Of a stretch of 64,000 bases of DNA, positions 16,377 to 46,383 are shown in pieces (within the stretch, counting starts at the first letter, position 1; every line of letters starts with the position of its first letter). Origin of the DNA: Plasmopara viticola (taxonomy: Eukaryota; Oomycota; Peronosporomycetes; Peronosporales; Peronosporaceae). The stretch lies in NCBI GenBank assembly GCA_001695595.3, contig MBPM02000008.1, positions 1,612,001-1,676,000 on the forward strand, given 5' to 3'. A program made the position numbers and the translations under genes. The notes under the pieces were generated by a model. It did no database searches and was not told where the DNA came from. It worked only from the letters and a program-made list of their open reading frames with translations.

Positions 16377-16392
16377 GCCCCTATAGCTCAGT
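16377..16392 (+). repeat. tRNA-Thr stub at LINE-C 3' end
   Basis: The stub equals nt 1-16 of tRNA-Thr. The partner copy starts the complete gene at 23980, giving a 16-bp target-site duplication around LINE-C. Confidence 0.92.
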
Positions 16393-16400
16393 TTAAAGTT

Positions 16401-16421
16401 GTCTATATTAATTTTATAGAC
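16401..16421 (-). other. 3'-terminal stem-loop of LINE-C
   Basis: gtctata (16401-16407) and tatagac (16415-16421) form a perfect 7-bp stem with a 7-nt loop, starting 8 nt from the tRNA stub. Confidence 0.65.
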
Positions 16422-16746
16422 GATTGACTAATCAACTTGCCTGACCTAATATCTAATTTTAACTAATTCTGTCTAATATACATAATCTAGTGTAAGGTTG
16501 GTGTGTAGGGTTTCGGTTCTACATTTTGCCCTGTTTTGAATCAGAAAATGGCGTGCTGGACCCTCCACGCGGGTCGAAATTTCTCGATAGCTACTGCGAG
16601 TTACGTGCTGGTGCTTCGGCCATATGTGCAGCATATATATAGCCAGGTGTGTACCAACTGGCTGCACGTGTAGTTCACTCTGGCGCCGAAACGCCCGACT
16701 GGTTCTCTAGCTCACTGTCGCTTCGTTCCGCCTCCAGACTGTCACT

Positions 16747-17036
16747 TTCCTCGAGCCGGCTCTAAAGCGGGCTCTCCTCAGGGCTCATGCCCCCCGTCCC
16801 CCTTTCGGGTGCAGCCGGAGACAACACAGTCCGCAGAGGAGAGCTCGGTTTAAGCCGGCGAGTCGAGCTTCAGTATGGAGGGGTCCGGGACTTTCCTCAA
16901 GCCGGCATTTAAGTGAACTCCCTCTGGGCTCATGCCCCCCGTCCCCCTTTCGGGTGCAGCCGGAGACAACACAGTCCGCAGAGGAGAGTCCACTTTTAGC
17001 CGGCGAGTACTGGAGTTGCTGGGACGCTTGAGCCTT
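16747..17036 (-). repeat. Tandem pair of ~145-bp GC-rich units
   Basis: Two units offset by 145 bp share an identical 63-nt core (16781-16843 and 16926-16988), flanked by agccggc blocks. The first core is enclosed by a perfect 9-bp inverted repeat (gctctcctc 16771-16779, gaggagagc 16836-16844). Because 145 is not a multiple of three, the conserved peptide falls in different frames in the two copies. Confidence 0.8.
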
Positions 17037-17138
17037 AGCCGGCAAATTCGAAAGTGAATAATAAAACTGGTGGCGGACAAAAATCCCTCCAAACAGCATA
17101 CCATGCTATTTGAAAGGATTTTTTTTTTGGACACCCAG

Positions 17139-20100
17139 TTAGACTGTCTGGCGGACACTGGTGATACCAGGATGGAGATCAGTGAAGTTGCCGAAAGCCG
17201 ACTGGGACTGCATCTTGCGCACAATTTAGCTCAGGGTTAGCTTGTCATCGACCCCATATAAGCGCCTATAAAAGTGTCGTACGTGCGCCGCAAATGTCGT
17301 AAATACCATTTGTAGCGCCGGGATCGGTGGCGTAGGCTGTCTCCCGTCGAACAAACACCGATTGCGATCCGTCCACAGAAAATGAAGCGTCACTGCGCGG
17401 AGGACATGCCATACGTCATCTGCGACCGCCTCATGGTCCTTCCATTCATCGCGCACTCGCATCCTTCGTGCAAGCGCGATGTCGAGCCACGTTGGCTTCT
17501 GGTTGAAGAGCCTGCTCGCGATGTCAAGCACATGTAGCCACAAGTCCGACGCAAGCGAGCAGTCAAAGAACAGATGTTGTTCCGACTCAATTGCATCACA
17601 ATTATCGCGCACACATGTGCGAATGCCAGTATTTGTGTGCTCCAAAAACCAGAAGCGCGACCGGACTGGCAGTAGTCGGAATGCCAATCTGAACTGGAGG
17701 TCCTCAAAGATTGGAAGCAGTACCTTCCGCAGTCGCTTGCCTTGCTTTGCATGCTCTCTTATGAATCTGACGTCGATATTATCCCAATAGACCTTCATCG
17801 GATGCGGCTTTATTGGTGATTTTGGCTTCCATACGATACGCAGAACCGCCGAGCGTGAGATCGCAGGAAATAATTGCAGCTTCTCGTCGCTGAAAACTCC
17901 GACGTATGGTATCAATCTCGGGCTACCTCTGGCAGATATCGAAAAAGCAGCTCCACATGATTTTAGCCGATCCACGATCTGCGTCGCCTCGTTATATAAT
18001 ACGCGTAGCCACTTGATTTGTTGACCCGGCGTGATGTCCTTCAGCGTAAAGTCAATGTGTCGATCCACGAAGTCGACTTGCGACGGCCACGTGCGCTGAC
18101 CGCGCATAAAGTCAGCAAGCGACCGAAGACCGAAGACGCGAGAAATGTGTAGCCGAAAGCTTCGTTGTGGCTCTGGCACCATACCAATGCAGCGCCGATG
18201 CGCCAAAGTCGTGCCATCACGCATTCGTTGTTCGTAGTGAAGACTGGCGTCTGAGTGAAATCAGATCGGCTGGAAAAGTGCATAGTCGATGCGCTCGTTG
18301 GACGGCAAGTCGTGCACGTCATTTCCCAGCTTGAGCGGTGCCACCATGTCCAAGTTGTCTTCCACCACGTCGACGTATGACTCCACTTGATCATCTCGCC
18401 GTGGCGCTGTGGGAATATTGTAAGCAGATCGAGCGCATGGCATTTGCTGTACCGAGGAAGGATTGACCTCAATAACTCTGTACTAGCAGTCGTCCACCAA
18501 CGTCCGGTAGACGCTCGAGCCTGTGCTACGAAGTGCATCAGAAGCACAAAGCGTTGCCGCTTAAGCTGTGCTTCAAGACTTTGAATACCAATACCACCGT
18601 CCGCTCGTCGAAGATAAAGAAATTCATTTGGAATCAGCTGTATGTGTGTCGCGCGCGGTCGTGCTTGCGACTCAGCACAAATCGGTTTAGCGTCGACCGC
18701 CATCTTTTGACGACCGCCAACGGAATTGACACGTGCTGTGTGCACTGCCATAAGCGCGACAGAACCATGGTTGAGCAACCAAGAGACGCCCGCGAAGCGT
18801 TCGAGCGCGACGGTACCACAGTTTGAAGCCTTCATAAAAGCGCTGGTCAAGCGACACGAGGATGCGATCGTCGACGGGTGACTGGCTGAAAGGAATGCCA
18901 AGATACTTGACCGACTCCGAGCGTCCGAGGACGCGTACACCGGGCATGTGCGGGCAGTCTTGATTCCGGTTCAGAGCCAGCAGCACCGACTTTGACAAGT
19001 TCAGCCTCGCCCCCGAGCCTTGGCAATATTTCTCCACAGTCTCAAGTTGTGCCTGCAGATTTGTGATGGAGCTTCCGATCAGCGTCGAGTCATCTGCGAA
19101 GAATAAACTCGTTGCAGTATCGTTGTCGTTCAGACACACACCGTACTCTTCGTGTGAGCGCAGCATGTTTCCAAGTGGCTCAATCGTTAAGATGAACAGC
19201 AGTGCGGACAGAGGGTCTCCTTGTTTCACTCCGCGTGAAGGATGCAGCGCTGGCTGAATGACGCCGTTGATCAGCAGGTGAGCAAGCGGATCCGTGTAGA
19301 GCAACTTTACCCAGCGTGTGAAGCCTATGCCGATCCCCATACGCTCAAGCAACCGGAACATGTAATCCCAGTTGACTCGATCAAATGCCTTCTGAAAATC
19401 CAAGAATAGCGCGTACGCCTCTTCGGCTCTACTAGTCACCAGGTCTTGGAGATCAGCGAGGAAACGTACGTGGTGGTGAATCGAGCGGCCGCGGACAAAA
19501 CCTTTTTGGTCCGTATGGACCAATTTTGGGATAGCTGACTGCAGCCGATACGCCAGCGCCTTAGAAAGTATCTTTACATCGACTGGGATGAGCGCGATCG
19601 GTCGGTAGTTGCCTGGATCTGCACGCGAACCCTTCTTGTGCAACAGCACCACCGCCGACTTGCGCTGTGATGCAAGCAGTTTCCCGCGCTTGAGTCGATC
19701 ATTGAAGACCAGCGCTAGGCACTGGCCAAACACATCCGGTGCGACTTGGTAAAATCCCGCTGTCAAGCCATCGATACCTGGAGATGACGTCGTTTTCATG
19801 CGCTTGATAGCTTCTGTCAAGTCGATGGAGCTCACGTCCTTGTCAAGAGCCTGCCTATCGGGCTCCGATAGCGTGCGAACGACAGAGTCGAGAAGCTTAC
19901 GTTGCATCGTGTTGTCTGGTGGGGATGCTGTCCCCGTTTGACTGTCTGGGTCACCCATCTCCGACCCCCAATGCTCGAGGAAGTGAAGGCTGATCTCGTT
20001 TGGGTTGGTTGAGATACTTCCATTCGGGAGTAAGACTTCCTCAATCGAGATTCGCCGCAAGCTTGTGTCCAAAGGTCGAAAAAAGTGCTTTGTCGACTTC

Positions 20101-21263
20101 TCGGAGTTTGCAGCTTGGAAATCGAACGCAGTGTCTTGATGATACTGGCTCGACCGGGTCACTATCTCCTTGTAGTTTTTCATAGCTTCCTCGTACATCT
20201 TACAATTAGCATCGTGGGCAGCAGCTCGGTGACACGCGGCCGTGCGATCCAGCACGACGCGGGCATTTTCAACTGCTTGGGAATCTTGAGCCCGGAGCTT
20301 CTTCTGCAACTTCTGCAGCTGCATTTTGATGTCCGACTTCCACTGCTCCCATATCCGCCCTGGATTCTGCGAAGTGTGAAGCTTCGATAGGATGTCATCA
20401 GCTTCGCGCTGAATTGCCGATACCACTAGCGGGTATTCGAGCAGATAGTGCGGAAACTTCCAGTAACCTCTACCATGCAGTTGGGATCCCGACTTGAAAG
20501 TCACGCTATGTGCCAGATGGTCTCCGGCATGTGGTGGTAAGAAGTACTTGGCATCACCGTAGAAGCTGCTACAAAATATGTCCGAGACAAGGATGTAGTC
20601 AAGGCGGTTCTTGCGAGGCATCGGTCCCGTGAACACGCGTGCTGTATCGTGGTGAATTCGCCAGGCGTCTACGACGCCCAGTCGGGCCAACCAATCCAAG
20701 CAGCACGAACGACTTGAGTCATAACGCAAGTCCAACACTGAACAGTCCAAGGTCGGGTCCAGCGGAGTATTAAGGTCGCCAAGTACCAAATGTGTTGCGT
20801 CGTCTTCGAATTCTTCCGTTGCTAAATCTGAAAAGAACGCTTGTTTCTCTTGTTTATGCACAGGCGCGTAGACGTTGTGGATATAGACGGGAGCAAGCTT
20901 GACCATTACACGCACGACGAGGTACCGGCCAGGGACGGTCAGATGGGTGAGCTCCACTGCCGATTCAAAGCCTGGAAAGTCGGACCGCAGCAATGTTAGT
21001 ACTCCGTTGCTTCGACCGCGTGTCGGCCGGTCCAGGAGTGTGTTCACATCGCTCAGGAACAACTTGTGTTTGAAGGTAGACTCGAGGTGAAACTTGAAAC
21101 TTGCAAGATGCGAGCGGTCCGCAAATTTAGTCTCTTGAATGCACGACATCCCGTACTTTGATAGCAGATTGTCGATCAGAAGGTGCCCGTTATTCTTGAC
21201 GCCATTCGTGTTCACAGTTAGCACACTGGTGTTGTTCCAAGTCAGGTGCGACGTCGAGATCAC
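17139..21263 (-). pseudogene. LINE-C ORF2 (endonuclease/reverse transcriptase, broken in the 3' half)
   Basis: The first 858 codons (21263 to about 18690) are open. They carry the endonuclease (TNG, QETKF, YAPV, GDLNTPLD, NRLDYIL, AGDHLAHS) and most of the RT (YRPIAL, FLDFQKAFDRVNW, GVKQGDPLSALLF, FFADDS, KYLGIPF). Frameshifts then occur near 18770, 18650 and 18330. TGA at about 18264 replaces a Trp, and TAA at 17226 is premature. The family C terminus ends at TAA 17139-17141. The zinc knuckle CVRDNCDAIESEQHLFFDC is intact. The frame has no ATG near its start: the MTVNTNG Met of LINE-A and B is Leu here. Confidence 0.9.
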
Positions 21264-21273
21264 CTTAGCAGCG
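21258..21273 (-). promoter_or_regulatory. ORF1/ORF2 overlap with conserved stop context
   Basis: ORF1 ends CGC TGC TAA and ORF2 is open through it in the +1 frame (GCT AAG GTG). LINE-A and LINE-B have the same context, TGCTAAAGT. ORF2 is therefore probably reached by reinitiation or by a frameshift at this point. Confidence 0.5.
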
Positions 21274-23874
21274 AGTGGCTATGCCGCCCGCTACTGGTGT
21301 CACCGATCCGTCGTCTGCGACAAGAAGCTGGAGAACCGATTTGTCTGTTGGGTAATGACCTTCTAGTTTTCTCAATTCTTCGAGCTCGTCGAGCAAGTGA
21401 CCTTGCCATTGGATCTCACGCCAATGCACCATGCATAGCTCGCCAAGCTTCGACCGCAGAAGACTCAGCAGCGTGTTTGGGTGTAGCAGGCGAGCGTGGT
21501 GGGCGGGAATCCACTCAACCGGATGACCCGTGACGTATTGAATCCAGTGGTCATTTGCAAACAGCGTTGGTGCGATCGACATGAGCGTTAGCTCAAATGC
21601 AGACAGCGCCTTAGTAAAACGCGTCAGCTCAAAGATCTTCGGCGTCGCCTTCCACCACTTGCCACACGCAGCGAAGATATCCTGACGCTTGGACGGAACC
21701 GATGCCTTCATAAGCCTCTTCCATTTCGCTACGAATGTCGTGTCTTCGTTCGGCTTGTTCGCGCTCAGCACTCGATTAATCATGTGCAATTGCGCAAGCT
21801 CCTCAATCTCGTTACCGCTAGCTGCCATTTTGAGGGATAGCGCACTGTTAAACGCGAGCGGAGACTCAGTCGCTTTCTTCATGATGTGGTCCGGATTAGT
21901 CGCGTTTCTAAGAATTGTGGATATGCTCTCAACTTTTCTGTCCGCATCCTCGAGACGGTCGTCAAGTGTGTTCAATAGCGCCGTATTTTCATCGCTGATC
22001 ATAGAGTCAGTCACCTCAACAACAGGCGAAGGAATAGACGCCTTCCGAATTTTTGTATGATGCTTCTCGACAAAGAACGCGGACTCTTTGGACGATTTGA
22101 GAGCTTCGGGACGCTTTACGTCAACCGGACGAACGTGATGACGGATGCCGTACTTCTTGTCCCTGGTCGCATCAATCAACTCAAACTTGACTTCTAGCGT
22201 CTGGAGTGCCTGAAAGTAGTTCGTCGTTGCGACTCCATCCAGTGGTTTTGGCATCTGTTTTGTCAACATGTTAGTGAAGTCGATACCTCCACGCGAGCGT
22301 TTCTTTTTGTTCGTGACAGTGATGAATTCGTCTGAACCATTCGTCAGCATGAGCATTGGCTTAGGCGAAGCCTTTGGACTCGCTGGAGGCGAAAGACGAC
22401 TTCCAGATCCAGTGGATGTTGAAATCGAGAGCACGTCATCGATGTCGATGACCCTCTTTGCGAGTTGGGTGGCCATAATTTGCTGGCCATGCTGAGCTCC
22501 GGGCTGGAGCTGGCCATCCTCTTTCGTCTCTTCATTCTCAAGCGCGTTGTCAATCAAGGAAAGAACTGGTTCGGCCTGTGGAGCATGTGATTTTTTCGAC
22601 TGAGTCCGTGATGGCTTTGACTTAGGAGCAGGCTGTGCGGTCTGTCTGTGGACGTTTCGAGTAAATTCAGCATTCGACGAGTTGAGCGACCCTAAGTCAA
22701 TGCTATGGTGGGAGCGGAAGCCGAATGGAAGCCGCTCAGACGCAAATGGCGCGTCTTTGCCATGCACCGGATATAATTTGTTGTTAAACACGAGCTGGTC
22801 GCACACGGAGCCGTTCACCACCAGTGGAGGTGGACAGTCGCTCGACCGGAAGTACACTCGCCACGTTGCCGAAGTGAGACCCGTCGCCAGGTTCACATCG
22901 CGATACGTGTCGTACACTGGCTCGCATCTGAGTAGGTAAAGACGACGTAAAACAAGATCCGTGTTCGTATCCGAGTCAACGTTAGAAATATCCAGGAAGA
23001 ACTTGCTCGCGAGGACATCAAACGGCTTAAACGGGTACACGTTGCCAAGGATGCTAACGGTCGTGCGCTCAAGTTCCATACACGCCTCGCGGTCCTTGAG
23101 CTTGAGACGCAAGTTTCCACCTGGCATCTTTGATACCTGGCCGACTCTTTTCTGCTCGTAAAGACGGTCAAGCGTACGATTGCGATGATTCGTCCCCACG
23201 AGCGCGGCCATAATTTTGGTCAGCGATGTCTTAGTAAACGTCGTACCCGTCTCAATCACCATGTCGTACCTGGCTCGGGGAAGCTCGTACGGGCGCGACT
23301 GGTGGATACAAGAAGCTATGTCGGACCAGTCACCACCGGTAGCATACTGGCGCTCTATTGCTTCAATATCGACAGCGAGAGGCTTGGGAGTTTCCACCCG
23401 GCGACGCGCAGTATCAGCTTTGACGTTGTCACGACGGATAGCTTCTTGCTGGCGAAGCAGCATTGCCATCGATGGACGTGGATCATTCACATCCTTATCA
23501 ACAACACTTTTGACCGCATCATCGTCAGTAATAGCGGCAGAGGCGCCATCTTCCGGGAGTGCAGTCGGCATCGCCTCGTCATTATCCGTCTTGACGATGG
23601 TGAGAGACGAAGCAGAATGAGCAGGCGATGTTGACATAGGCAGCGCGAGCGGTGACGGCGAGGAAGTCACCGCGACAAGAGGTGCGGATCTTTCTGCGCC
23701 GTCGAGGGGAGCAGTACAGAACCCACCTACAGAAGAGTCGGCAGGATCCGCATGAGAAAAAGGGGCCGAGCGGCCCGACGGGTGGTCAGGAGCAGTTACA
23801 GCTGCCAAAGCCGGGACTGCACAGGCAGTGGAGGTGGCAGGTCGAGAAGACGGTGCGACAGCTGGATTTTTCAT
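21265..23874 (-). CDS. LINE-C ORF1 protein, probable RNA-binding (869 aa, intact)
   Basis: I do not know a named family for certain; position and layout match LINE ORF1 proteins, which coat the element RNA. The start is ATG at 23874, 105 bp inside the element. Residues 1-130 are low-complexity Ser/Pro/Ala/Asp. Residues 140-400 are conserved with LINE-A and LINE-D, and 285-350 (FFLDISNV...TWRVYFRS) look like an RRM-type fold by pattern only. Residues 400-520 are a linker ending in a basic KKKRSRG patch, a possible nuclear signal. Residues 540-850 are helical and the most conserved part. No CCHC knuckle is seen. The stop TAA (21265-21267) overlaps the ORF2 frame. It is the only uninterrupted retroelement protein in the window. 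Confidence 0.85.
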   Translation of the reverse strand: MKNPAVAPSSRPATSTACAVPALAAVTAPDHPSGRSAPFSHADPADSSVGGFCTAPLDGAERSAPLVAVTSSPSPLALPMSTSPAHSASSLTIVKTDNDEAMPTALPEDGASAAITDDDAVKSVVDKDVNDPRPSMAMLLRQQEAIRRDNVKADTARRRVETPKPLAVDIEAIERQYATGGDWSDIASCIHQSRPYELPRARYDMVIETGTTFTKTSLTKIMAALVGTNHRNRTLDRLYEQKRVGQVSKMPGGNLRLKLKDREACMELERTTVSILGNVYPFKPFDVLASKFFLDISNVDSDTNTDLVLRRLYLLRCEPVYDTYRDVNLATGLTSATWRVYFRSSDCPPPLVVNGSVCDQLVFNNKLYPVHGKDAPFASERLPFGFRSHHSIDLGSLNSSNAEFTRNVHRQTAQPAPKSKPSRTQSKKSHAPQAEPVLSLIDNALENEETKEDGQLQPGAQHGQQIMATQLAKRVIDIDDVLSISTSTGSGSRLSPPASPKASPKPMLMLTNGSDEFITVTNKKKRSRGGIDFTNMLTKQMPKPLDGVATTNYFQALQTLEVKFELIDATRDKKYGIRHHVRPVDVKRPEALKSSKESAFFVEKHHTKIRKASIPSPVVEVTDSMISDENTALLNTLDDRLEDADRKVESISTILRNATNPDHIMKKATESPLAFNSALSLKMAASGNEIEELAQLHMINRVLSANKPNEDTTFVAKWKRLMKASVPSKRQDIFAACGKWWKATPKIFELTRFTKALSAFELTLMSIAPTLFANDHWIQYVTGHPVEWIPAHHARLLHPNTLLSLLRSKLGELCMVHWREIQWQGHLLDELEELRKLEGHYPTDKSVLQLLVADDGSVTPVAGGIATRC

Positions 23875-23979
23875 CACAGAAAAAGAACAGCAGAAGGCTT
23901 AAGAAGCTTGAAGCAGGAAAGAGATGGGATGGGTTCTTCCGAAAAGTCGACTTGAGGGGTAGCCGGCAATTTGAGATGT

Positions 23980-24051
23980 GCCCCTATAGCTCAGTGGTAG
24001 AGCACCCGCTTAGTAAGCGGAAGGTCGGTAGTTCAATCCTGCCTGGGGGCA
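23980..24051 (+). tRNA. tRNA-Thr (AGT), restored gene at LINE-C 5' end
   Basis: Identical to the copy at 8761. Its 5' flank is the LINE-C 5' end, head to head. Its first 16 nt are the right-hand target duplication. Confidence 0.95.
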
Positions 24052-24256
24052 TTTCTCAGACAATTATAACAAAACTCGTTCATCTCGCCCTCAGCAATCG
24101 TGAGCAGTGTGTCTAATAATTTCCTTGCTCTATTTATGCGTTATCAATAATACACTATCAAACCTCCATTACGGCGTAAGATAAAATATAGACCTTTTTT
24201 AGCTAGCTTGACTAGTAGAGGGATACACCCAAGATACTTCCGTCTCTATTAGCATT

Positions 24257-24324: not shown

Positions 24325-24460
24325 GAACTATAGCGGAAAGTTATCAGCAAAATTCGGGCTCCCCATAAAACCCAATTAAGTACACCCTGGCCATAGCGAT
24401 GGCGTGCAGACTGTTTCGTGTGATGGCAATGTAGATAGTGTGTTGTCGTCGGCAGCAATT

Positions 24461-24532
24461 GCCCCTATAGCTCAGTGGTAGAGCACCCGCTTAGTAAGCG
24501 GAAGGTCGGTAGTTCAATCCTGCCTGGGGGCA
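24461..24532 (+). tRNA. tRNA-Thr (AGT)
   Basis: 72 nt, same sequence as 8761. This is the last complete gene before LINE-D; its spacer has the private gaaattcccg and gcggtaag changes used to trace the LINE-D/LINE-E duplication. Confidence 0.95.
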
Positions 24533-24936
24533 TTTCTCAGACAATTATAACAAAACTCGTTCATCTCGCCCTCAGCAATCGTGAGCAGTGTGTCTAATAA
24601 TTTCTCTGTTTATGCGTTATCAATAATACACTATCATACCTTTATTACGGCGTAAGATAAAATATAGACCACTTTTAGCTAGCTTGACTAGTAGAGGGAT
24701 ACACCCAAGATACTTCCGTCTCTATTAGCATTTAACTTTATCGGCGGTGCCCTTTTAAGCGTACCTCCTTTTGAAATTCCCGATTTCTCCCATAAAGTTA
24801 GAACTATAGCGGTAAGTTATCAGCAAAATTCGGGCTCCCCATAAAACCCAATTGAGTACACCCAGGCCATAGCGATGGCGTGCAGACTGTTTCGTGTGAT
24901 GGCAATGTAGATAGTGTGTTGTCGTCGGCAGCAATT

Positions 24937-24952
24937 GCCCCTATAGCTCAGT
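24937..24952 (+). repeat. tRNA-Thr stub at LINE-D 3' end
   Basis: nt 1-16 of tRNA-Thr. The next two bases are gg, as in the gene, so the duplication could be 18 bp and the A box of the stub is complete. Confidence 0.92.
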
Positions 24953-24960
24953 GGAAGGTT

Positions 24961-24983
24961 GTCTATATTTAGTATAATATGAC
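24961..24983 (-). other. 3'-terminal stem-loop of LINE-D
   Basis: gtctatatt (24961-24969) pairs with aatatgac (24976-24983), eight pairs with one bulged T and a 6-nt loop, 8 nt from the junction. Confidence 0.55.
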
Positions 24984-25033
24984 AAAAGACTACCCAACTT
25001 GCCTGGTGTACTAAACTTCTCTACTGTATAACT

Positions 25034-25075
25034 AAATTTATGTATTTTCCTTAATGTAGGAAAATACACAAATTT
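25034..25075 (-). other. 18-bp hairpin in LINE-D 3' UTR
   Basis: The arms 25034-25051 and 25058-25075 pair at 17 of 18 positions around a 6-nt loop. It matches the LINE-B hairpin in shape and mostly in sequence. Confidence 0.65.
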
Positions 25076-25712
25076 TTTTTTTCCTTTTTTGTGTTTTTTT
25101 TTTTTTTTTTTTTCAAAACATCCAATCACCGGCGCATAAGGGTTTCGGTTTTACACTTTCGCCCCCATTTTGACTTCAACTTCGATCAAAAATGGACGTT
25201 TAGACCCTTTGCGCGTGGCAACGTTTCTCGGCAACTGCGATCATTCAGCAGCTGCAATTCTGGGTACGTATGCAGCTCATACAGCGCCGATTGCATGCTA
25301 ATTGCTCACGCATACCGATGCCCCTGTCGCTCAAACGAAGGTCCGGTCTTTCAGCTCACTGTCGCGTCGTTTCGTGACGGCGTGGTCCGCAATAGGTTCA
25401 GTGGGCCAACCATAACCGGGATCGGGTTCGGACTTTATACTGTATACAGTCAAAAATCCCTGGCTTATAAGAAATCAAAAGTCCTTGGCCTTTCATACCC
25501 CATAGGGAAAGTCTTGGCCTCTTTGACTCCATATACAAGATGGCCTCACAGGCCCAAACGTGATATTAAAAAACAAGGCCATTCCGCGCTCAGGCTCCAC
25601 AAGAATACGAAAAATCGCCGGCCTTGTGAGACTCACGCGAAACAAAGTCCCCGGCCTCAGCACAAAATCGCCAACCGGCTGACGCCACATTCTTCGGCCT
25701 CCGTCGCGGCTA

Positions 25713-25812
25713 GCGCGCATCTACATCCGCTGTGAGCTTGGCCTGCAGCGTCGGACTACAGAGCGCGCATCTACATCCGCTGCGATCTTGGCCTGCAGCG
25801 TCGGACTACAGA
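25713..25812. repeat. Tandem 50-bp direct repeat in LINE-D 3' UTR
   Basis: Two 50-bp copies (25713-25762 and 25763-25812) starting gcgcgcatctacatccgctg differ by about two bases. LINE-E carries the same pair. Confidence 0.85.
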
Positions 25813-26200
25813 GCCCCTCAAGTGATGTGTTTTCACCCGGAAGGGCGACCGGCAGGCTGCCCGACCAGGTAGCTTATACAGCAGCACGCGACGGATTGTA
25901 ATCGTCCATAATGAACTCGAAATTTTTCGAAATTAACGGTGTTTCCTTCCTAGCCGTTGACTGGTTTTCCCTGTACGCACAGCTCTTGATGGTCGTGTTT
26001 TGCTGGTCCAAGCTGCGGATTTTGCACTTGCGTGACGACCAATGAAGTTGTAAAACATTTTGTGGGTAAAGGTCGAGTCGATCGATAGGTTCGCTTTGAC
26101 TGTAGCCGACATCACCACCAAAAGATCATCGGCGTCTACATCCACAGCCATATATCCGAAGTTGTCATGGAACAGAAGCCGCCTATATGTAAGTTTGCAT

Positions 26201-32900: not shown

Positions 32901-32989
32901 TGAACTCAAAAAAAGGGGGCGGGGAAGGGGTTGGGGTACTTCTGTTATTGACTGGATCGACTTGTGCTCGACGAGGCAAATTGGGAAGT

Positions 32990-35389: not shown

Positions 35390-35461
35390 GCCCCTATAGC
35401 TCAGTGGTAGAGCACCCGCTTAGTAAGCGGAAGGTCGGTAGTTCAATCCTGCCTGGGGGCA
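35390..35461 (+). tRNA. tRNA-Thr (AGT)
   Basis: 72 nt, same sequence as 8761. Downstream spacer class A, matching the spacer after 33471. Confidence 0.95.
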
Positions 35462-35865: not shown

Positions 35866-35937
35866 GCCCCTATAGCTCAGTGGTAGAGCACCCGCTTAGT
35901 AAGCGGAAGGTCGGTAGTTCAATCCTGCCTGGGGGCA
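35866..35937 (+). tRNA. tRNA-Thr (AGT)
   Basis: 72 nt, same sequence as 8761. Downstream spacer class B with one lost C (tctccataaag). Confidence 0.95.
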
Positions 35938-36345
35938 TTTCTCAGACAATTATAACAAAACTCGTTCATCTCGCCCTCAGCAATCGTGAGCAGTGTGTCT
36001 AATAATTTCATTGCTCTATTTATGCGTTATCAATAATACACTATCATACCTTTATTACGGCGTAAGATAAAATATAGACCACTTTTAGCTAGCTTGACTA
36101 GTAGAGGGATACACCCAAGATACTTCCGTCTCTATTAGCATTTAACTTTATCGGCGGTGCCCTTTTAAGCGTACCTCCTTTTGAAACTCCCGATTTCTCC
36201 ATAAAGTTAGAACTATAGCGGGAAGTTATCAGCAAAATTCGGGCTCCCCATAAAACCCAATTGAGTACACCCAGGCCATAGCGATGGCGTGCAGACTGTT
36301 TCGTGTGATGGCAATGTATTTAGTGTGTTGTCGTCGGCAGCAATT

Positions 36346-36417
36346 GCCCCTATAGCTCAGTGGTAGAGCACCCGCTTAGTAAGCGGAAGGTCGGTAGTTC
36401 AATCCTGCCTGGGGGCA
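36346..36417 (+). tRNA. tRNA-Thr (AGT)
   Basis: 72 nt, same sequence as 8761. Downstream spacer class C. Confidence 0.95.
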
Positions 36418-36826
36418 TTTCTCAGACAATTATAACAAAACTCGTTCATCTCGCCCTCAGCAATCGTGAGCAGTGTGTCTAATAATTTCAGTGCTCTATT
36501 TATGCGTTATCAATAATACACTATCAAACCTCCATTACGGCGTAAGATAAAATATAGACCACTTTTAGCTAGCTTGACTAGTAGAGGGATACACCCAAGA
36601 TACTTCCGTCTCTATTAGCATTTAACTTTATCGGCGGTGCCCTTTTAAGCGTACCTCCTTTTGAAACTCCCGATTTCTCCCATAAAGTTAGAACTATAGC
36701 GGGAAGTTATCAGCAAAATTCGGGCTCCCCATAAAACCCAATTGAGTACACCCAGGCCATAGCGATGGCGTGCAGACTGTTTCGTGTGATGGCAATGTAG
36801 ATAGTGTGTTGTCGTCGGCAGCAATT

Positions 36827-36898
36827 GCCCCTATAGCTCAGTGGTAGAGCACCCGCTTAGTAAGCGGAAGGTCGGTAGTTCAATCCTGCCTGGGGGCA
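36827..36898 (+). tRNA. tRNA-Thr (AGT)
   Basis: 72 nt, same sequence as 8761. Downstream spacer class A', shortened at cccaatttcataaag. Confidence 0.95.
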
Positions 36899-37298
36899 TT
36901 TCTCAGACAATTATAACAAAACTCGTTCATCTCGCCCTCAGCAATCGTGAGCAGTGTGTCTAATAATTTCTCTATTTATGCGTTATCAATAATACACTAT
37001 CAAACCTCCATTACGGCGTAAGATAAAATATAGACCTTTTTTAGCTAGCTTGACTAGTAGAGGGATACACCCAAGATACTTCCGTCTCTATTAGCATTTA
37101 ACTTTATCGGTGATGCCCTTTTAAGCGTACCTCCTTTTGAAACTCCCAATTTCATAAAGTTAGAACTATAGCGGGAAGTTATCAGCAAAATTCGGGCTCC
37201 CCATAAAACCCAATTGAGTACACCCAGGCCATAGCGATGGCGTGCAGACTGTTTCGTGTGATGGCAATGTAGATAGTGTGTTGTCGTCGGCAGCAATT

Positions 37299-37370
37299 GC
37301 CCCTATAGCTCAGTGGTAGAGCACCCGCTTAGTAAGCGGAAGGTCGGTAGTTCAATCCTGCCTGGGGGCA
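37299..37370 (+). tRNA. tRNA-Thr (AGT)
   Basis: 72 nt, same sequence as 8761. Its spacer has the private acaccctggcc and is the counterpart of the unit at 23980. Confidence 0.95.
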
Positions 37371-37779
37371 TTTCTCAGACAATTATAACAAAACTCGTTC
37401 ATCTCGCCCTCAGCAATCGTGAGCAGTGTGTCTAATAATTTCCTTGCTCTATTTATGCGTTATCAATAATACACTATCAAACCTCCATTACGGCGTAAGA
37501 TAAAATATAGACCTTTTTTAGCTAGCTTGACTAGTAGAGGGATACACCCAAGATACTTCCGTCTCTATTAGCATTTAACTTTATCGGTGATGCCCTTTTA
37601 AGCGTACCTCCTTTTGAAACTCCCAATTTCTCCGATAAAGTTAGAACTATAGCGGGAAGTTATCAGCAAAATTCGGGCTCCCCATAAAACCCAATTAAGT
37701 ACACCCTGGCCATAGCGATGGCGTGCAGACTGTTTCGTGTGATGGCAATGTAGATAGTGTGTTGTCGTCGGCAGCAATT

Positions 37780-37851
37780 GCCCCTATAGCTCAGTGGTAG
37801 AGCACCCGCTTAGTAAGCGGAAGGTCGGTAGTTCAATCCTGCCTGGGGGCA
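37780..37851 (+). tRNA. tRNA-Thr (AGT)
   Basis: 72 nt, same sequence as 8761. Its spacer has gaaattcccg and gcggtaag and is the counterpart of the unit at 24461. Confidence 0.95.
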
Positions 37852-38255
37852 TTTCTCAGACAATTATAACAAAACTCGTTCATCTCGCCCTCAGCAATCG
37901 TGAGCAGTGTGTCTAATAATTTCTCTGTTTATGCGTTATCAATAATACACTATCATACCTTTATTACGGCGTAAGATAAAATATAGACCACTTTTAGCTA
38001 GCTTGACTAGTAGAGGGATACACCCAAGATACTTCCGTCTCTATTAGCATTTAACTTTATCGGCGGTGCCCTTTTAAGCGTACCTCCTTTTGAAATTCCC
38101 GATTTCTCCCATAAAGTTAGAACTATAGCGGTAAGTTATCAGCAAAATTCGGGCTCCCCATAAAACCCAATTGAGTACACCCAGGCCATAGCGATGGCGT
38201 GCAGACTGTTTCGTGTGATGGCAATGTAGATAGTGTGTTGTCGTCGGCAGCAATT

Positions 38256-38271
38256 GCCCCTATAGCTCAGT
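38256..38271 (+). repeat. tRNA-Thr stub at LINE-E 3' end
   Basis: Same junction as at 24937, exactly 13319 bp further on. Confidence 0.92.
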
Positions 38272-38279
38272 GGAAGGTT

Positions 38280-38302
38280 GTCTATATTTAGTATAATATG
38301 AC
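38280..38302 (-). other. 3'-terminal stem-loop of LINE-E
   Basis: Arms 38280-38288 and 38295-38302, identical to the LINE-D stem-loop. Confidence 0.55.
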
Positions 38303-38352
38303 AAAAGACTACCCAACTTGCCTGGTGTACTAAACTTCTCTACTGTATAACT

Positions 38353-38394
38353 AAATTTATGTATTTTCCTTAATGTAGGAAAATACACAAATTT
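38353..38394 (-). other. 18-bp hairpin in LINE-E 3' UTR
   Basis: Arms 38353-38370 and 38377-38394, same as the hairpin of LINE-D. Confidence 0.65.
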
Positions 38395-39034
38395 ATGTTT
38401 TTCCTTTTTTTATGATTTTTTTTTTTTTTTTTTTTCAAAACATCCAATCACCGGCGCATAAGGGTTTCGGTTTTACACTTTCGCCCCCATTTTGACTTCA
38501 ACTTCGATCAAAAATGGACGTTTAGACCCTTTGCGCGTGGCAACGTTTCTCGGCAACTGCGATCATTCAGCAGCTGCAATTCTGGGTACGTATGCAGCTC
38601 ATACAGCGCCGATTGCATGCTAATTGCTCACGCATACCGATGCCCCTGTCGCTCAAACGAAGGTCCGGTCTTTCAGCTCACTGTCGCGTCGTTTCGTGAC
38701 GGCGTGGTCCGCAATAGGTTCAGTGGGCCAACCATAACCGGGATCGGGTTCGGACTTTATACTGTATACAGTCAAAAATCCCTGGCTTATAAGAAATCAA
38801 AAGTCCTTGGCCTTTCATACCCCATAGGGAAAGTCTTGGCCTCTTTGACTCCATATACAAGATGGCCTCACAGGCCCAAACGTGATATAAAAAAACAAGG
38901 CCATTCCGCGCTCAGGCTCCACAAGAATACGAAAAATCGCCGGCCTTGTGAGACTCACGCGAAACAAAGTCCCCGGCCTCAGCACAAAATCGCCAACCGG
39001 CTGACGCCACATTCTTCGGCCTCCGTCGCGGCTA

Positions 39035-39134
39035 GCGCGCATCTACATCCGCTGTGAGCTTGGCCTGCAGCGTCGGACTACAGAGCGCGCATCTACATCC
39101 GCTGCGATCTTGGCCTGCAGCGTCGGACTACAGA
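39035..39134. repeat. Tandem 50-bp direct repeat in LINE-E 3' UTR
   Basis: Two 50-bp copies (39035-39084, 39085-39134), the counterpart of 25713-25812. Confidence 0.85.
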
Positions 39135-39520
39135 GCCCCTCAAGTGATGTGTTTTCACCCGGAAGGGCGACCGGCAGGCTGCCCGACCAGGTAGCTTATA
39201 CAGCAGCACGCGACGGATTGTAATCGTCCATAATGAACTCGAAATTTTTCGAAATTAACGGTGTTTCCTTCCTAGCCGTTGACTGGTTTTCCCTGTACGC
39301 ACAGCTCTTGATGGTCGTGTTTTGCTGGTCCAAGCTGCGGATTTTGCACTTGCGTGACGACCAATGAAGTTGTAAAACATTTTGTGGGTAAAGGTCGAGT
39401 CGATCGATAGGTTCGCTTTGACTGTAGCCGACATCACCACCAAAAGATCATCGGCGTCTACATCCACAGCCATATATCCGAAGTTGTCATGGAACAGAAG
39501 CCGCCTATGTAAGTTTGCAT

Positions 39521-42500
39521 TCATACCAAAAACCGAACTTGGAACAAGTAAGGGTGCTCACAGATGAATTTTCCTAGAGAAGCCGTGGAGGACAACTTTC
39601 GAAGCACCTGACGAAGCCGATCGCGTTGAGCCAATTCGTACTTGCGACGTAGGCATCCCCTAACATGAGCACTGAAAACTGTGTAAATGACGCGCAGAGC
39701 TGGTGATAGTGGGATAGGAGAACGAGTGTCAAAAATCCGGCCATTCCGCTCAGTCCAGAGAAAGTGTAAGACCACTGCTCGTGTAATGTGCCACATGTCA
39801 ACCACTTGCCTAACATGTTCGTGAACTGTATCCCGCAGTGGAGGTTCCCTTCCGATCGCAATGTCGAGCCAAGAAGGTGCGCGTGTGAAGTAAGGATACC
39901 AGTCACGAAACACGACTTCCCAAACCTCACTTGCAAGTGAGCAGTCAAAGAAGAGGTGGCGCTCTGTCTCGACCGCAGAACAGCCATCGCGAACGCAGAA
40001 AATCGCGTTCGGGTCGTCACCAAGGAAAGTAAAGCGAGACCGAACTGGAAGAAGTCGGAACGCAAGACGAAACTGAAGGTCCTCGTAAATGGGAAGCAAC
40101 AAGCCACACAAGTGCTTCCTCAGCTTTACAAACTTCTTGACATCGTCAGGTCGCGCACGAGAGTCGTGCAGTTGGATCGGGTGATCATGTACTGCTTGAA
40201 CGGGCTTTGATACAAGTGACAGGAGTTGAAGTTTTGAGACCATGGGCACAAGACGGATGCGATCGTTAACACGTACACCAGCGTACGGCAGGTTAAAGCA
40301 GTCTCCTGTTGGAACTGGTGTGTCCATGGAAAGTCCACAAAAGGCTACAACACGCTGGAAAACTTGAGTCACCTCTTTGTGCAGACGCGTAAGCCACATA
40401 AGCTGCTTGTATGCTGAGACGACAGGGTACGAATAGTCGATGTGTGCTTCCGCGAAAGTACGAGCAGTGCTCCAGACACCCGACGTATCAACAAAGTCAA
40501 CAAGCGAACGCAAGCCAAATGCGCTGGCTATGTGACGTCGAAATTCGCGCTGTGGCTCAGCGATCATGCTGATGCTGCGTCTTGGACTCCGTTCACCGTC
40601 ATCCCGAGAAGAGGGTTCAAACTGGAAGACTGGATCACCGTGAAACCAAAGAGGCTGATGCAACGCGTACCGAAATCGTTCGGCTGAGTTGAGGTCAATC
40701 CACGTAATTGGCCATTTCACCCCGTACCACAGCTTCCATGCCGCACGCCACCATGTCGACAAAAAACGGTGCCTTAGGACACCATGTCGATGCGGACTGA
40801 CAAACAAGAAGTCGAGATGTTGTCGTGGTCCCCAATCTGGAAGAACGGACGACAAAAGCAGTACGCCTGGGGTTGTCCAGTTGCATACGGCTGGTTCCGC
40901 CGCCGTGATGAACTGTTGGAGAAACTGGAGATGTTGTCGTTTCACTAAGCTTCGAGACTTGGGATCTGAAGTCCACCGTCATTGCGCTTCATCCGCAAAA
41001 AGTCATTCGGTATTAACTGGAAGGTCCTTGCTGAGCGCTCAAAACGCCTGTTCAATACAAACCTGTGAAGTGCTGCTTGCCATTTTTTCAGCGTGTGTTT
41101 TGGCGCGGTGACGAGCCTCGTGTAATGCCACAGCCGAGAGAGGACCATCGTCTGCGCGATGAGAAGCCGACCGTGCAGAGTGCGTGCCCGCCGGAACCAG
41201 AGTTTGAAACCATCATAAAACCGAGTGTCGAGCGCTTCCAGCATCTGATCTTCTGTGATGCGTTGACCAAAAGGGAAGCCGAGATACTTCACTGTGTTAT
41301 CATAGCCAAGAACTCGAACGTCTGGGATCGCAAAACAAGAACGGGAACGATGAAGGCTCATCAATACGCACTTGGACCGATTGAGCTTCGCTCCCGACCC
41401 TTGACTGTACTCTTCAACGAGGTCGAGCTGTGCTTGAACGCCTGCGATCGAACCCGAGAGCAAGGTGGAGTCGTCTGCGAAAAAGATGCTCGTAACTGTG
41501 AAATCGTCGGACAATGGGACGCCGTGTTCTTCATGTTGGCGGAGCAAGTTACCGAGAGGCTCGATCACCAAAAGAAATAGCAACGCAGACAGAGGATCAC
41601 CCTGCTTTACGCCGCGAGATGGATATAGGCCTTCAAGGATATGACCGTTGACAATCAGATGTGCTTGTGGCTTCGTGTACACGAGCTTAACCCACTCGGA
41701 GTACGTACCACCGCAACCCATACGATCTAGTACTTGGAACATGTAGTTCCAGTTGACACGGTCATATGCCTTTTCAAAGTCGAGGAACGTCGCATACGCT
41801 TCGTCGTCACGGGCCGTCACCAATCTTGAAGATCTTGAAGAAACCGCACGTGGTGGTGCAGTGACCGTCCCTTGACAAACGCCTTCTGACTTGGATGAAC
41901 AAGCTTGGACAAGAATATTTGGAGTCGAAAAGCAAGCGCCTTTGTCAAAGCCTTGACATCAACACCCATGAGAGCAATTGGACGGTAGTTGCCGGGCTCA
42001 GCTCGACAGCCGGTTTTGTGGAGTAAGCTGATAGCTGACTTCCGTTGGCACGGCAACAGCTCCCCTCGGACAAGTTGGTAATTGAAGACGATCTCGAGGC
42101 ACTCTCCAAATACATCCGGTGCGACCTGGTAAAAGGCAGCTGTAAACCCGTCCATGCCTGGAGCCGAGTTTGGTCGCATCTTTTTGATGGCATTTGCCAA
42201 GTCAACCGCGGTGATCGGGGCACTCAGCAACGCTTGTTCATCCTCGCTGAGAACACGGTCGATGGTGTTGAGAAGCCGATCAATAGCAGCTGGAGAGGGG
42301 TCCATTGACCGACCGCTGCTGCTGTTCTTGTCACCGAGGATACCACCCCAATGATCGTTGAAGACGGCACTGATATCGGCAGGGTTCTTCGATATTGATC
42401 CGTCTTGCATCCGTACTTCTTCGACACTTGTTCGTCGAACAGAGTCGTCGAGCGGGCGACAAAAGTACTTGGATGACGTCTCTGTCTGCATCGCTTGGAA

Positions 42501-43597
42501 GTCAAACGCAGTGTCATGATTGTAGGCGCGAGACGTATTGACACAGGCGTCGTACGCCCTCAAGGCCGTCTGAAAGGCCACTCGAGCGGATTCATCGCGG
42601 GTCGACCTATAACGAGAAGCTGCAGAGTCAAGGGTCTGTTGAGCATCAAAAGCGTCTTCTTGTCGGCGCCGCAGCTTGCGCTGAAGAGCCTGAAGAAGCT
42701 GACGCATCTCGATCTTTGACTTCATCCAAACTTTACCCGGGTTGGTTGCCTCGTGAAGCCTGCCCAAGACTACCTTTGCTTCGTGCGCAATGGCTTGGAC
42801 GATAGCAGGGTACTCGAGTAGCGCTGCCGAGAACCTCCAGTAACTGCGACCATGTGGCTGGGCCATCGAACGTAGCTCGACACTATGAGCAAGGTGATCA
42901 CCAGCACCTTTGGGAGGGAAGTACTTCGAGTTGTAGTACACCGCACCACAGAAGTCGTTGGAGAGAAGAATGTAGTCAAGTCGATTATAACGTGGTTGAG
43001 GGCCCGTGAAGACGCGCTTGTTGGAATGATGAATTCGCCACGCGTCCACGACCCCAAGCTGACTAATCCAATTGAGGCAAGAGCTTCGACCATTGGATAA
43101 CCGTGCACGGCCTGACGAGGAATCGACGCTTGGATTCAGAGGAGTGTTCAGATCGCCCATAACAATGTGGGTCGCGTTGATTTCAAACACATCCGTCGGA
43201 AGGTGGTCAAAGAATACGGTCTTCTCGTGTTGGTCGATTGGAGCGTACACGTTGTGTACGTACATCGGAGCATTTTGAATCGTCAATTTACTACCAAATA
43301 CCGACCTGACACTGACAGCGCTGGGAGATCATGCGCTGTGTAGAAGCCCGGGAAGTCAGAGCGGAGAATTGTCATCACGCCGCCGGACCGGGTGTTTGGC
43401 GCGACCAATGCATTCGCGTTCGGGTCGTTAACAAAGACTTGATGTCGGAAGCGAGCGTCGTGATTGAATTTTAAAGTGGAGAAGTGTGCCGCATCGCGAA
43501 ACTTAGTCTCTTGAACACATGAGAGACTATGCTTCATGAGTAGATGATCGATCAGCAAGTGACCATTCTGTTTAACTCCGTTGGTGTTGACAGTCAA
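39521..43597 (-). pseudogene. LINE-E ORF2 (endonuclease/reverse transcriptase with frameshifts)
   Basis: The last 474 codons (39521-40945), with the thumb/C-terminal region and zinc knuckle, are open here, unlike in LINE-D. The two shared one-base losses break the frame near 41820 and 40950. A private loss near 43285 (gtcaatttactacc) splits the endonuclease, and another near 43608 alters the start region. Motif content equals LINE-D ORF2. Confidence 0.9.
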
Positions 43598-43648
43598 AAG
43601 ACTGACGTTATCCACGAGATTGGAGTCGCTTCACTAAATGAAACCTCG

Positions 43649-46221
43649 TTAATAGTCCAGGCTCAAGGACCCGGCTACTAATCGCGGAACATTCTCCACG
43701 ACTTGTATTTGTAGGACCGCACATTCTTCGGGGTAGAAGAGGTTGCAGTCACGGAGATATTCGAGATCGTCAAGGAGCTGGCCTTGCCACTGCACTCTGG
43801 ACCAAATGTCAAAGCAGTGTCGACCAATCTCTGATCGCAGTAGTAACAGCAGTGTGTTAGGGTGCAGAAGACGGCGATTTTGTGCGGCAATCCACAACAC
43901 TTCCTGACCGGTGATACGCTGAATCCACATGTCCTTCTCGAAGACATGAGGCGCTGTGCACATTAGCATCAGCTCGAATAAAGAAAGAGCTCGCGTTGCG
44001 CGAATGTTCGACTCGTGTACTGGGTCCTTCCACAAACTCTCTGTCCGCTCGAAGAGTTCTTCACGCGTCCTCGGTATTTTAGAGCCAAATCGTTTCGTCC
44101 ATTTCGACGCAAAAGTCGTCGAGGAAGTTGGATCCGATGCGCTCAGCACCCGGTTCAGCAAATGTAGCTGTGCCACCCCGTTGACATGATCCTTGAGCTC
44201 CTTCATATCCGCAAGCAAGGCAGCGTTGAAGCCGAGCGGTGTGCCCACACTCGCGAGATGAGTCAGCGTGTCGGGGTTGTGGTATTTTTAAGTGTCTTCC
44301 TCACACCTTCAATGCGAGCGTCCGCTACAGCCAGGTGATTCGGTCGAAGTTGGAGATCTGCCGTCTCTTCGACGTCCTTCATCTCATCGACAATCTCCTG
44401 GATCATCATCGGCTTCGGCGATTTAGACACCTTTGTGTGTTTTTTTACGAAGAAATGCGACGACTCCGAGCTATTCTCGATCGCTTCCGGGACCTTTACC
44501 TTGCGAGGGACGATCTGATAGCGAGTGGGGGCACCCTTCGAGAGCATAGCTGACGAGCAGTCAAACTCGACTTCAACCGAGTTCAGCACATCGTAGTAAT
44601 TGCTAGTGGCAAGCTTCTGGGCCGGTGCTGGCTGAGTGCTCTTTAACATAGACCCGAAGGTCTTTTCAGCACGGCGGCGCTTGGCCTTGTTCACCTTACT
44701 CACCACGACCTCATTGTTAGCCAAACTTAGCGCTGGCGCCGGTGCAGGCAGCAGGGTCGAGGGCAGGAGGCGCAGCGCATTTTTTGGACTACCAGGAGGA
44801 CTGACCAAGGAGCCGGTATTGTCAAGAGAGAGAATACTCACTGCGTCATCTTTCTTCGGTCCAGAGTCGTCCCCCAAAGTATTCAATCCCTTGACGACGT
44901 CAGCGTACGACGGACCAGACGGTTCTGTCGGCAAAGCTGACGATGTGACGTCACCAATGCGGTCGAGGTTGAGCGCGTACGGCGACTTCTGCCCAAACCC
45001 AAGACGGTGGGACGGAAAAGCAGCGTTGCGACCTTGTGCTGGATACTGTGAGCAGCTAAAGATGATCTGATCGCAAACCTTGCCGTCGATGACGACGGCC
45101 TTTGGTGGCGTTGACGAGCGGAAATAAACACGCCATGTTGCTGTTGTGAGGCCCGACTGAATATTGACGTCTCGGAAAGTGCCGTAAATTGGTTCCGCAC
45201 CAAGCCGGAAGAATCTTTCCATGAGGGAGGCGTGCGAGAAGATGCTATCGACACCCGAGATGTCAAGATAGTACCGGTCTGCAAGGATGTCAAAGTCCGA
45301 GAACGTAAACGTGTGGCCGAGAATGCGGACGGGCTGTCGAGCAAGCTCAGTACATGCCTTTCGGTCTTTGACACGCACACAAAGCTCGCCGGCCCGGCCC
45401 TTGGAGATTTGTCCGATCTGGCAATCGTTGACTTGCGCTTGGACCACTGGATTTCCGTTGTCCTTGAGAAACGATGTTGCAATCTTGTTGATACCAGTAC
45501 GCTGGAACGCTTGCCCGGTTTTGACGGTCATCACGTACCGCGTCTGGGGCAGCTCGTACGGCCGAGCGCGCTCGATTGGCGACCGCAGCTGACTCCAGTC
45601 TACTCCCTTTTCGTAGAGAGCGTCGATGGTTTCAATATCGACCGCAGACGGTTGAGGCGTTATAAGTACGCCCGAGTTTCGGTACCGAGGCGAAGCGGTG
45701 TCGCGCCGAAGCTCGTCGTCTTGGGCTAGAAGCGCACGGAGCGACCCATTTGGCACCGCTGTCGCATTATTCGGGTGTTCGCCAGCCATAGCCGTATCAC
45801 CCGAGGCATCGTCGCTGGGTACGGCATCGTTGGTGCTGGAGTTGCCGACAGCGAGGGACATGTCAGTACTTTGAAGAAGCACCGTCATACCACTGCCTAC
45901 GTCGACGGCTCGAGAAGCGTCTCCGTCTCCAGAGGATGGATGGCCACTAGGTTTCATCAGGCTGCTAACGCCACCAACCTTGATGGATGGTGGCGCATTA
46001 GTCGTACAAGTGCTTGTGGATAATCCATGGTCGAGAACATCTGTTAATACACACTCATTTGCAGCAAGTGTCGCAGCATTCGTATCCGTGGCGGAAGAGT
46101 CATGATGAGGTCTTACCATCTCCGTCGGTGAGAAAAACGATCCGGTCGTGGGAGATGGTGGGTTCGCACCATCATTGCACATCTCACAGGAAGGTAAGAG
46201 GAGAGGGTTGTTCTGATTCAT
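43649..46221 (-). pseudogene. LINE-E ORF1 (one frameshift)
   Basis: It starts at ATG 46221 and is open for about 650 codons to 44263, where a base change and a one-base loss near 44275 shift the frame. The last 199 codons (43649-44248) continue in the other frame to the family stop. LINE-D is intact at this place. Confidence 0.88.
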
Positions 46222-46311
46222 TGAACTCAAAAAAAAGGGGGCGGGGAAGGGGTTGGGGTACTTCTGTTATTGACTGGATCGACTTGTGCTCGACGAGGCA
46301 AATTGGGAAGT

Positions 46312-46383
46312 GCCCCTATAGCTCAGTGGTAGAGCACCCGCTTAGTAAGCGGAAGGTCGGTAGTTCAATCCTGCCTGGGGGCA
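46312..46383 (+). tRNA. tRNA-Thr (AGT), restored gene at LINE-E 5' end
   Basis: 72 nt, same sequence as 8761, abutting the LINE-E 5' end. Confidence 0.95.

Follow-up and report, generated by a model that had tools for sequence, protein, structure and literature searches.

We consider a stretch of 64,000 nucleotides from the oomycete Plasmopara viticola (contig MBPM02000008.1, positions 1,612,001 to 1,676,000 of the forward strand, hereafter the window), in which long interspersed nuclear elements (LINEs) and an element resembling a short interspersed nuclear element (SINE) lie inside tRNA-Thr(AGT) genes. The A box, where they lie, is the internal promoter for RNA polymerase III (Pol III). ARAGORN finds 42 tRNA-Thr(AGT) genes in the window, mostly within a tandem array, and 15 further copies are stubs that end in the A box and continue into foreign DNA. 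Each LINE in the window follows a stub with the ending ...TAGCTCA. Five of the 15 stubs adjoin LINEs (B to F), and ten adjoin an element of about 260 bp, which the initial annotation of this DNA did not describe. Thirteen insertions in the window have a visible right end, and directly after each of them stands a complete tRNA-Thr gene, called by ARAGORN in all 13 cases. The features are collected in Table 1. All genome-wide searches described below cover the Plasmopara viticola assembly of 92,937,831 bases in 358 contigs.

Table 1. Inserted elements, stubs and rebuilt genes in the window (RT, reverse transcriptase; EN, endonuclease; ORF, open reading frame; nt, nucleotide; aa, amino acid).
Feature	Position	Strand	Remarks
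LINE-A	1..8481	-	RT domain in 1712-4687; 5' end (8481) directly adjoins target T(-1)
Stub, 15-nt target copy TGCCCCTATAGCTCA	8482..8496	+	between LINE-A and SINE
SINE copy, 263 nt	8497..8759	-
Rebuilt tRNA-Thr(AGT) gene	8760..8833	+	ARAGORN
Stub before LINE-B	9240..9254	+
LINE-B	9255..15690	-	RT piece in 11466-12509; right boundary approximate
Stub before LINE-C, T(-1) to A14	16376..16390	+
LINE-C, 7588 nt	16391..23978	-	ORF1-like frame 21268-23898; ORF2 with EN and RT 18690-21278
Rebuilt tRNA-Thr(AGT) gene after LINE-C	23979..24052	+	ARAGORN
tRNA-Thr(AGT) tandem array	24460..60516	+	unit about 476-481 bp without inserted element; supplies empty sites
Stub before LINE-D	24936..24950	+
LINE-D, 8038 nt, divergent subfamily	24951..32988	-	ORF2 54-65% aa identity to LINE-C in aligned pieces
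Rebuilt tRNA-Thr(AGT) gene after LINE-D	32989..33062	+	ARAGORN
Stub before LINE-E	38255..38269	+
LINE-E, duplicate of LINE-D plus flanks	38270..46310	-
Rebuilt tRNA-Thr(AGT) gene after LINE-E	46311..46384	+	ARAGORN
Stub 50136-50150, SINE 50151-50410 (minus), rebuilt gene 50411-50484	50136..50484	+	ARAGORN gene call
Same stub/SINE/gene layout	starts at 51372, 52600, 54307, 55066, 55819, 58461, 59691, 62222
Stub 62975-62989 and LINE-F 3' end	62975..64000	-	continues past window edge

We begin with the LINEs. Their frames with EN or RT domains lie on the minus strand, antisense to the tRNA-Thr array, so that the 3' end of each LINE adjoins the stub and the 5' end adjoins the complete gene. Both junctions are present for LINE-C, LINE-D and LINE-E, and the initial annotation was right to place these three between a stub and a full gene; they do not, however, stand for three events. 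Segment 23979-36842 matches segment 37298-50152 at 99.2% identity along 12,889 aligned positions, and LINE-D and LINE-E themselves are 99.76% identical, so the two are one insertion copied together with its flanks in an array duplication of about 12.9 kb. The 3' junctions of LINE-B and LINE-F and the 5' junction of LINE-A are as first described, and the 3' junction of LINE-A, found about 0.2 kb to the left of the window (locus L002), lies at the same A-box site. From these comparisons the window appears to hold five separate LINE insertions (A, B, C, D/E and F). Their 3' tips differ from one another, those of A and F being similar and not identical, and with that of the SINE a total of six different 3' tips join at one site. 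The ORF2 pieces of LINE-A, LINE-B and LINE-D are 53.6-76.6% identical to the ORF2 of LINE-C; the target has therefore been retained while the proteins diverged.

Three irregular places accompany these elements. The 5' part of LINE-B is missing where the element meets an array unit, and recombination is apparently the cause. To the left of the window, a stub at C8:1609346 (L001/L002, C8:1609346-1611790) opens into an element of about 2 kb with the related 3' tip GTTGAATGTTTGTT; the element lies between that stub and LINE-A, and ARAGORN calls no tRNA in the joined stretch. At 15915-15972 a tRNA-Thr copy lacks 14 bases spanning the insertion site (TAT|GCACCC), and this gap is possibly the scar of a failed or excised insertion.

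The SINE-like element occurs in ten copies in the window, at the same A-box site as the LINEs. Its head is tRNA-like and contains a B-box-like GGTTCGAGCCC (judged by eye only, the head not being called by ARAGORN), and its 3' tip GTTGAAAGTTGTC resembles the tips of the LINEs. Six different 5' junctions are found among the ten copies, and the remaining copies look like products of array copying. The stub between LINE-A and the first SINE appears to mark a second insertion, into a gene already rebuilt. On the sense strand of the four window SINEs that were checked there is no T4 terminator inside the element; the first T4 follows about 90 nt past the stub in three of them and just behind the stub in the fourth. 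One idea is that the SINE transcript could include the antisense stub and so be able to pair with the TRGCTCA of any tRNA gene.

The exact position of the join can be considered next. The target tRNA-Thr reads T|GCCCCTATAGCTCAGTGGTAGAGC, where nt 1 is the first G, one base after the start given by ARAGORN. A join after CTCA, between A14 and nt 15, fits all the tips compared, with the bases after the join being ambiguous between target and element in Thr, Tyr and Lys genes. The decisive cases are three SINE insertions in tRNA-Ala genes (one Ala-AGC and two Ala-CGC). The tRNA-Ala gene reads CTCAAATGG and the junctions read CTCAGTTGAAA or CTCAGTTGTAA (CTCA|GTTGAAA, CTCA|GTTGTAA); these insertions favour a nick after A14. 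The nick had first been placed between nt 16 and 17, which is off by one or two bases: the stretch counted as nt 1-16 in fact consists of T(-1) and nt 1-15, and the best-fitting join is A14|15.

Beyond the window, a search of the genome with the SINE 3' tip, allowing 3 mismatches, gives 166 occurrences. The copies tabulated draw on part of these. Those close to the edge of a locus, or lacking a clear right end, were dropped, and those sharing the same sequence over the element plus 60 nt before and 40 nt after it were merged into one. The resulting 88 are copies and not events, with 1 to 13 distinct upstream 40-mers per target class. All 88 follow the 5' part of a tRNA gene, and all have the left junction GCTCA (at most 1 mismatch) followed by GT. 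The lengths range from 252 to 276 nt, and no 5' truncation is found among the 88. To judge by the acceptor arms of the genes on the right, the targets span 11 anticodon classes: Thr-AGT 19 (one with a variant arm), Thr-TGT 17, Thr-CGT 1, Tyr-GTA 28, Lys-TTT 4, Lys-CTT 7, Ile-AAT 3, Met-CAT 5, Ala-AGC 1, Ala-CGC 2 and Asn-GTT 1. A target confined to tRNA-Thr, as it appeared from the window, is rejected by this breadth; an A-box target common to many tRNAs goes beyond what was annotated initially.

The same 88 copies support the regeneration of the gene. Measured back from A14 with at most 1 mismatch, the target duplication is 15 nt in 56 copies, 14-18 nt in 84 and shorter in four; in the 84 it extends to about the tRNA 5' end, so that the full gene is restored, just as had been proposed. 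In 82 of the 88 copies ARAGORN recognises a tRNA in the right-hand gene, and in none does it recognise one in the stub. Eighty of the 82 called genes carry the expected anticodon, and two are read as another isotype (Pro, Ile); 28 are called only in the intron mode of ARAGORN (27 Tyr, and one read as Pro). The six uncalled genes comprise three cut at a locus edge, one that is a nested SINE, and two of full length. Restored genes are also hit again: a SINE stands behind a SINE, head-to-tail, in a Lys gene (L056), and a SINE stands behind a LINE at 8481/8497 of the window and in L054, L055 and L078. Some of the arrays are of mixed species, with a dimer unit of Ala-AGC and His-GTG in one (L031) and Thr-CGT near Ser-GCT in another (L080).

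For the LINEs, a flank-free 15-base tip pattern gives 37 matches in the genome and none when the pattern is reversed. RGCTCA stands at the exact spacing before the tip in 25 of these 3' ends. The other 12 were read singly: eight have GCTCAGTT right before the tip, and the remaining four have GCTCAGTTTAGTTT (L083), GCTCGGTT (L082), GGCCCAGTT (GCCCAGTT; L088) and AGACCAGTT (L092). Overall GCTCA or GCTCG precedes 35 of the 37, GCCCA one, and an antisense look-alike one, so that the A-box specificity first seen in the window is supported beyond it. The LINE subfamilies also share a 5' end resembling GGCAAATTG (at 8481, 23978, 32988 and 46310). A LINE or SINE 5' end takes the place of the sequence that stood upstream of the tRNA gene, and this shared LINE end might replace an upstream signal that the gene has lost.

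We turn our attention to the proteins. ORF2 carries the Pfam domains Exo_endo_phos (PF03372, APE endonuclease) and RVT_1 (PF00078, RT). Its best matches in the PDB are LINE-1 ORF2p (E 4.1e-54), ahead of chains named R2 (6e-22 or weaker), and the alignment to L1 runs from residue 62 on. Across ten aligned proteins, Q48-E49, D168, D227, D253-H254 and A728-D729-D730 are invariant or at least 90% kept, positions which we take to be catalytic in EN and RT. With these domains and catalytic positions kept, the elements are, on sequence grounds, L1-like LINEs of the APE type, and a restriction-like endonuclease of the R2/Utopia type is rejected. A search of the genome with ORF2 gives 56 matches, many without stops (only the best candidates were scored). 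The close relatives of ORF2 that are named belong to oomycetes (Globisporangium, Peronospora, Phytophthora, Aphanomyces, Lagenidium and others). The ORF1 frames of LINE-C and LINE-E have no Pfam match, even at E 5.

Combining the information above, we consider it highly probable that L1-like LINEs and a partner SINE target one specific site in the A box of many tRNA isoacceptors and leave the gene restored. The junctions, duplications, restored genes, repeated targeting, breadth of isoacceptors and EN and RT domains can all be read directly in the DNA. As expected of a target-specific non-long-terminal-repeat (non-LTR) retrotransposon, almost all copies lie at one site of a multicopy gene, and the duplications in the 84 SINE copies, together with the LINE junctions, are consistent with target-primed reverse transcription. 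In the proposed scheme, the APE-type endonuclease of ORF2 would nick the tRNA-sense strand after A14 in TRGCTCA^, presumably as the first of two nicks, and the freed 3' end would probably prime reverse transcription of the element RNA, the tip of which reads GTTGAAA, GTTTAAAG, GTGGAAGG and similar as cDNA. The second cut, in the other strand, would fall 14-18 nt away, immediately before tRNA nt 1 or at it, and repair would then duplicate about nt -1 to 14, with the left copy becoming a dead stub and the right copy an intact gene that could be hit again, and the arrays would multiply such insertions by unequal exchange. It is likely that the LINE machinery also moves the SINE and that the restored genes are transcribed. 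Taken together, a nick after A14, priming, a second cut 14-18 nt back and repair would explain why a stub lies on one side and an intact gene on the other, and why the targets are so varied.

Several observations weigh against this proposal. The tRNA context was read for 23 of the 37 LINE 3' ends (20 fetched and three in the window), the remaining 14 being known by their matched letters. Of the 23, 14 match a species called by ARAGORN (Thr-AGT 4, Ile 1, Lys-TTT 3, Met 4, Tyr 2), and eight, fetched in their 5' part only, have no species match. Seven of these end T-R-G-C-[T/C]-C-A. The eighth (L093, C34:276740-276920) follows AGGCTCAGTTG, which has AGGCTCA without T8; this stretch may not be a tRNA gene, and the copy is a possible off-target insertion. 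The remaining one of the 23 (L092, C349:14330-14500) lies antisense in the D arm of a tRNA-Leu(CAA) gene (assigned by eye), after the look-alike CCTTAGACCAGTT; an antisense insertion would not restore the gene in this way, while the look-alike before it speaks for a reading of the DNA sequence. Many copies in unrelated flanks, which the initial annotation named as the pattern that would contradict it, do not appear among the copies read, where L093 is doubtful and L092 antisense. For the tips of the F type, CTCA stands at the set spacing in eight of 11, leaving three without a match there. The ten LINE 5' ends inspected all abut tRNA nt -1/+1 directly, a sample chosen where such ends had been seen previously (four in the window, including D and E, and six at loci with a known end beside a stub) and containing some mutual copies. 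Some Lys-CTT junctions retain the C of the target (CAGTCGAAA), and a cut after A14 would need a later exchange to account for these copies. Of five RNA 3' ends folded, four have a tip-proximal hairpin in their best fold and that of LINE-F has another stem, with z-scores of -2.1, -0.2, -2.3, -1.6 and -1.3 that give the hairpins weak support.

The first alternative is that the elements have little sequence preference of their own and are brought to the site by tethering to Pol III factors, either TFIIIC on the A box or TFIIIB. Targeting by TRE5-A reportedly works by such tethering. We regard this as possible though rather unlikely. The octamer TRGCTCAG has 7,666 sites in the genome (5,625 for the reversed control) against 1,850 for TRGCTCAGTNGG, so most octamers probably lie outside tRNA genes, yet nearly all the insertion sites read are tRNA genes; a tether would explain this, and the ORF1 of TRE5 does contact TFIIIB (PMC5911963). 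TRE5, however, inserts 40-54 bp upstream (PMC5911963), whereas the present junctions keep one position almost to the base, and the antisense hit in the tRNA-Leu D arm follows its look-alike. Moreover the 12-mer TRGCTCAGTNGG, with 1,850 sites against 49 for its reversed form, is by that control rare outside the tRNA context (the strict D arm TRGCTCAGTNGGTRGAGC has 1,513 occurrences), and recognition of about 12 bp could therefore confine insertion without a tether. Sequence recognition and a Pol III tether may also act together, in a mixed model.

Alternatively, the array unit might be a tRNA-derived SINE, in which case the "tRNA gene" is itself mobile and the LINE merely enters a repeat. The array units here are nearly identical, and tRNA clusters of Peronospora effusa have been termed SINE-like (PMC11540230). 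Against this stand the presence in the arrays of a separate element of about 260 bp with its own head and tail, the fact that arrays of many isoacceptors are hit, and the counting of the Phytophthora infestans arrays as tRNA genes by their authors (PMC9584435), which together make the idea quite improbable.

The initial annotation itself raised the prospect that a single chance insertion was copied; its spread by array recombination and gene conversion is the form considered here. Copying of this kind does explain LINE-D and LINE-E and probably several of the window SINEs. As the origin of the whole set it is extremely improbable and is rejected, since the insertions lie on many contigs and in genes of 11 tRNA classes, which differ in acceptor arm and spacer; the six different 3' tips argue likewise, as do the six SINE 5' junctions, though later mutation could have given some of the latter. 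Assembly error has about as small a chance and is also rejected, for arrays are indeed difficult to assemble, but this type of junction is found on many contigs, with tRNA genes and spacers that vary.

How does the proposed A-box insertion compare with known systems? The initial annotation took the Dictyostelium TRE elements as the precedent. TRE5 and TRE3 are L1-like as well and use tRNA gene neighbourhoods as safe sites, differing in that they insert outside the gene, within a range, and in that the ORF1 of TRE5 contacts TFIIIB (PMC5911963). A TRE-type element is rejected here, as the junctions lie inside the tRNA gene. Nor are the TREs the sole precedent. For Dada DNA transposons, too, the insertion sites are fixed and lie within tRNA genes of several isoacceptors, and some Dada families target nt 8-13 (TAGCTC) of the A box with a duplication of 6-7 bp (PMC3706591, PMC8869645). 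This duplication would be too short to restore the gene. Dada thus shares its kind of target with the present elements, but it has a DDE transposase, whereas we find a retrotransposon with EN and RT proteins, a 14-18 nt duplication and a restored gene, and a Dada-like transposon is thus rejected.

Dewa, Keno and Mutsu are target-specific non-LTR retrotransposons of the Tx1 clade. They have in common with the present elements an APE-type endonuclease and targets in multicopy RNA-gene loci. Their sites, which are the tRNA-Leu spacer for Dewa (PMC3706591), U2 for Keno and 5S for Mutsu (PMC3706591, PMC4640811), differ from the A box of many tRNAs. Utopia non-LTR elements disrupt oomycete U2 genes, leaving the genes they hit without their first 38 bp (PMC4640811); like the elements described here they are kept in an oomycete small-RNA gene with several families per array, and they differ in target and in belonging to the restriction-like endonuclease group. 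Oomycetes have large tandem tRNA arrays, many of a single isoacceptor (PMC9584435, PMC11540230), and the available parts of these two papers report no LINE or SINE inside tRNA genes. SINE families of Phytophthora infestans have been described (Fungal Genet Biol 2005, via PMC11540230). tRNA genes are named in general terms among non-LTR targets (PMC5035012, PMC8869645), and no non-LTR retrotransposon inside a tRNA A box was found in the openly available PMC literature, Repbase and subscription papers lying outside this scope. Target-specific non-LTR retrotransposition is already known, while its A-box LINE/SINE form is apparently, and with some uncertainty, unreported. Prophages and integrative elements at tRNA genes likewise restore the gene that they use, mostly in its 3' half, by an integrase and an att site. 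Reverse transcription, unlike here, has no part in their insertion.

A wider interpretation, for which we see the chances as about even, is that the universal A box serves this LINE/SINE system as its attachment site in most or all tRNA species. The stagger between the two cuts would equal the distance from A14 to the 5' end, so that every sense insertion would regenerate a working gene and with it a fresh target. Such a site would be a nearly cost-free and self-renewing safe harbour, would allow the head-to-tail pile-up of elements, and may contribute to the form of the giant oomycete tRNA arrays. Few sequences in any genome are as conserved and as numerous as tRNA genes. If true, the finding would show how an element can inhabit essential genes harmlessly, cutting into their promoter and yet leaving a whole gene behind. 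It makes testable the recognition of about 12 bp by an APE endonuclease, the pairing of the RNA tip with the target, and the growth of tRNA arrays. Builders of tools for inserting large pieces of DNA would also take an interest in an RNA-templated insertion that restores its gene at a universal site.

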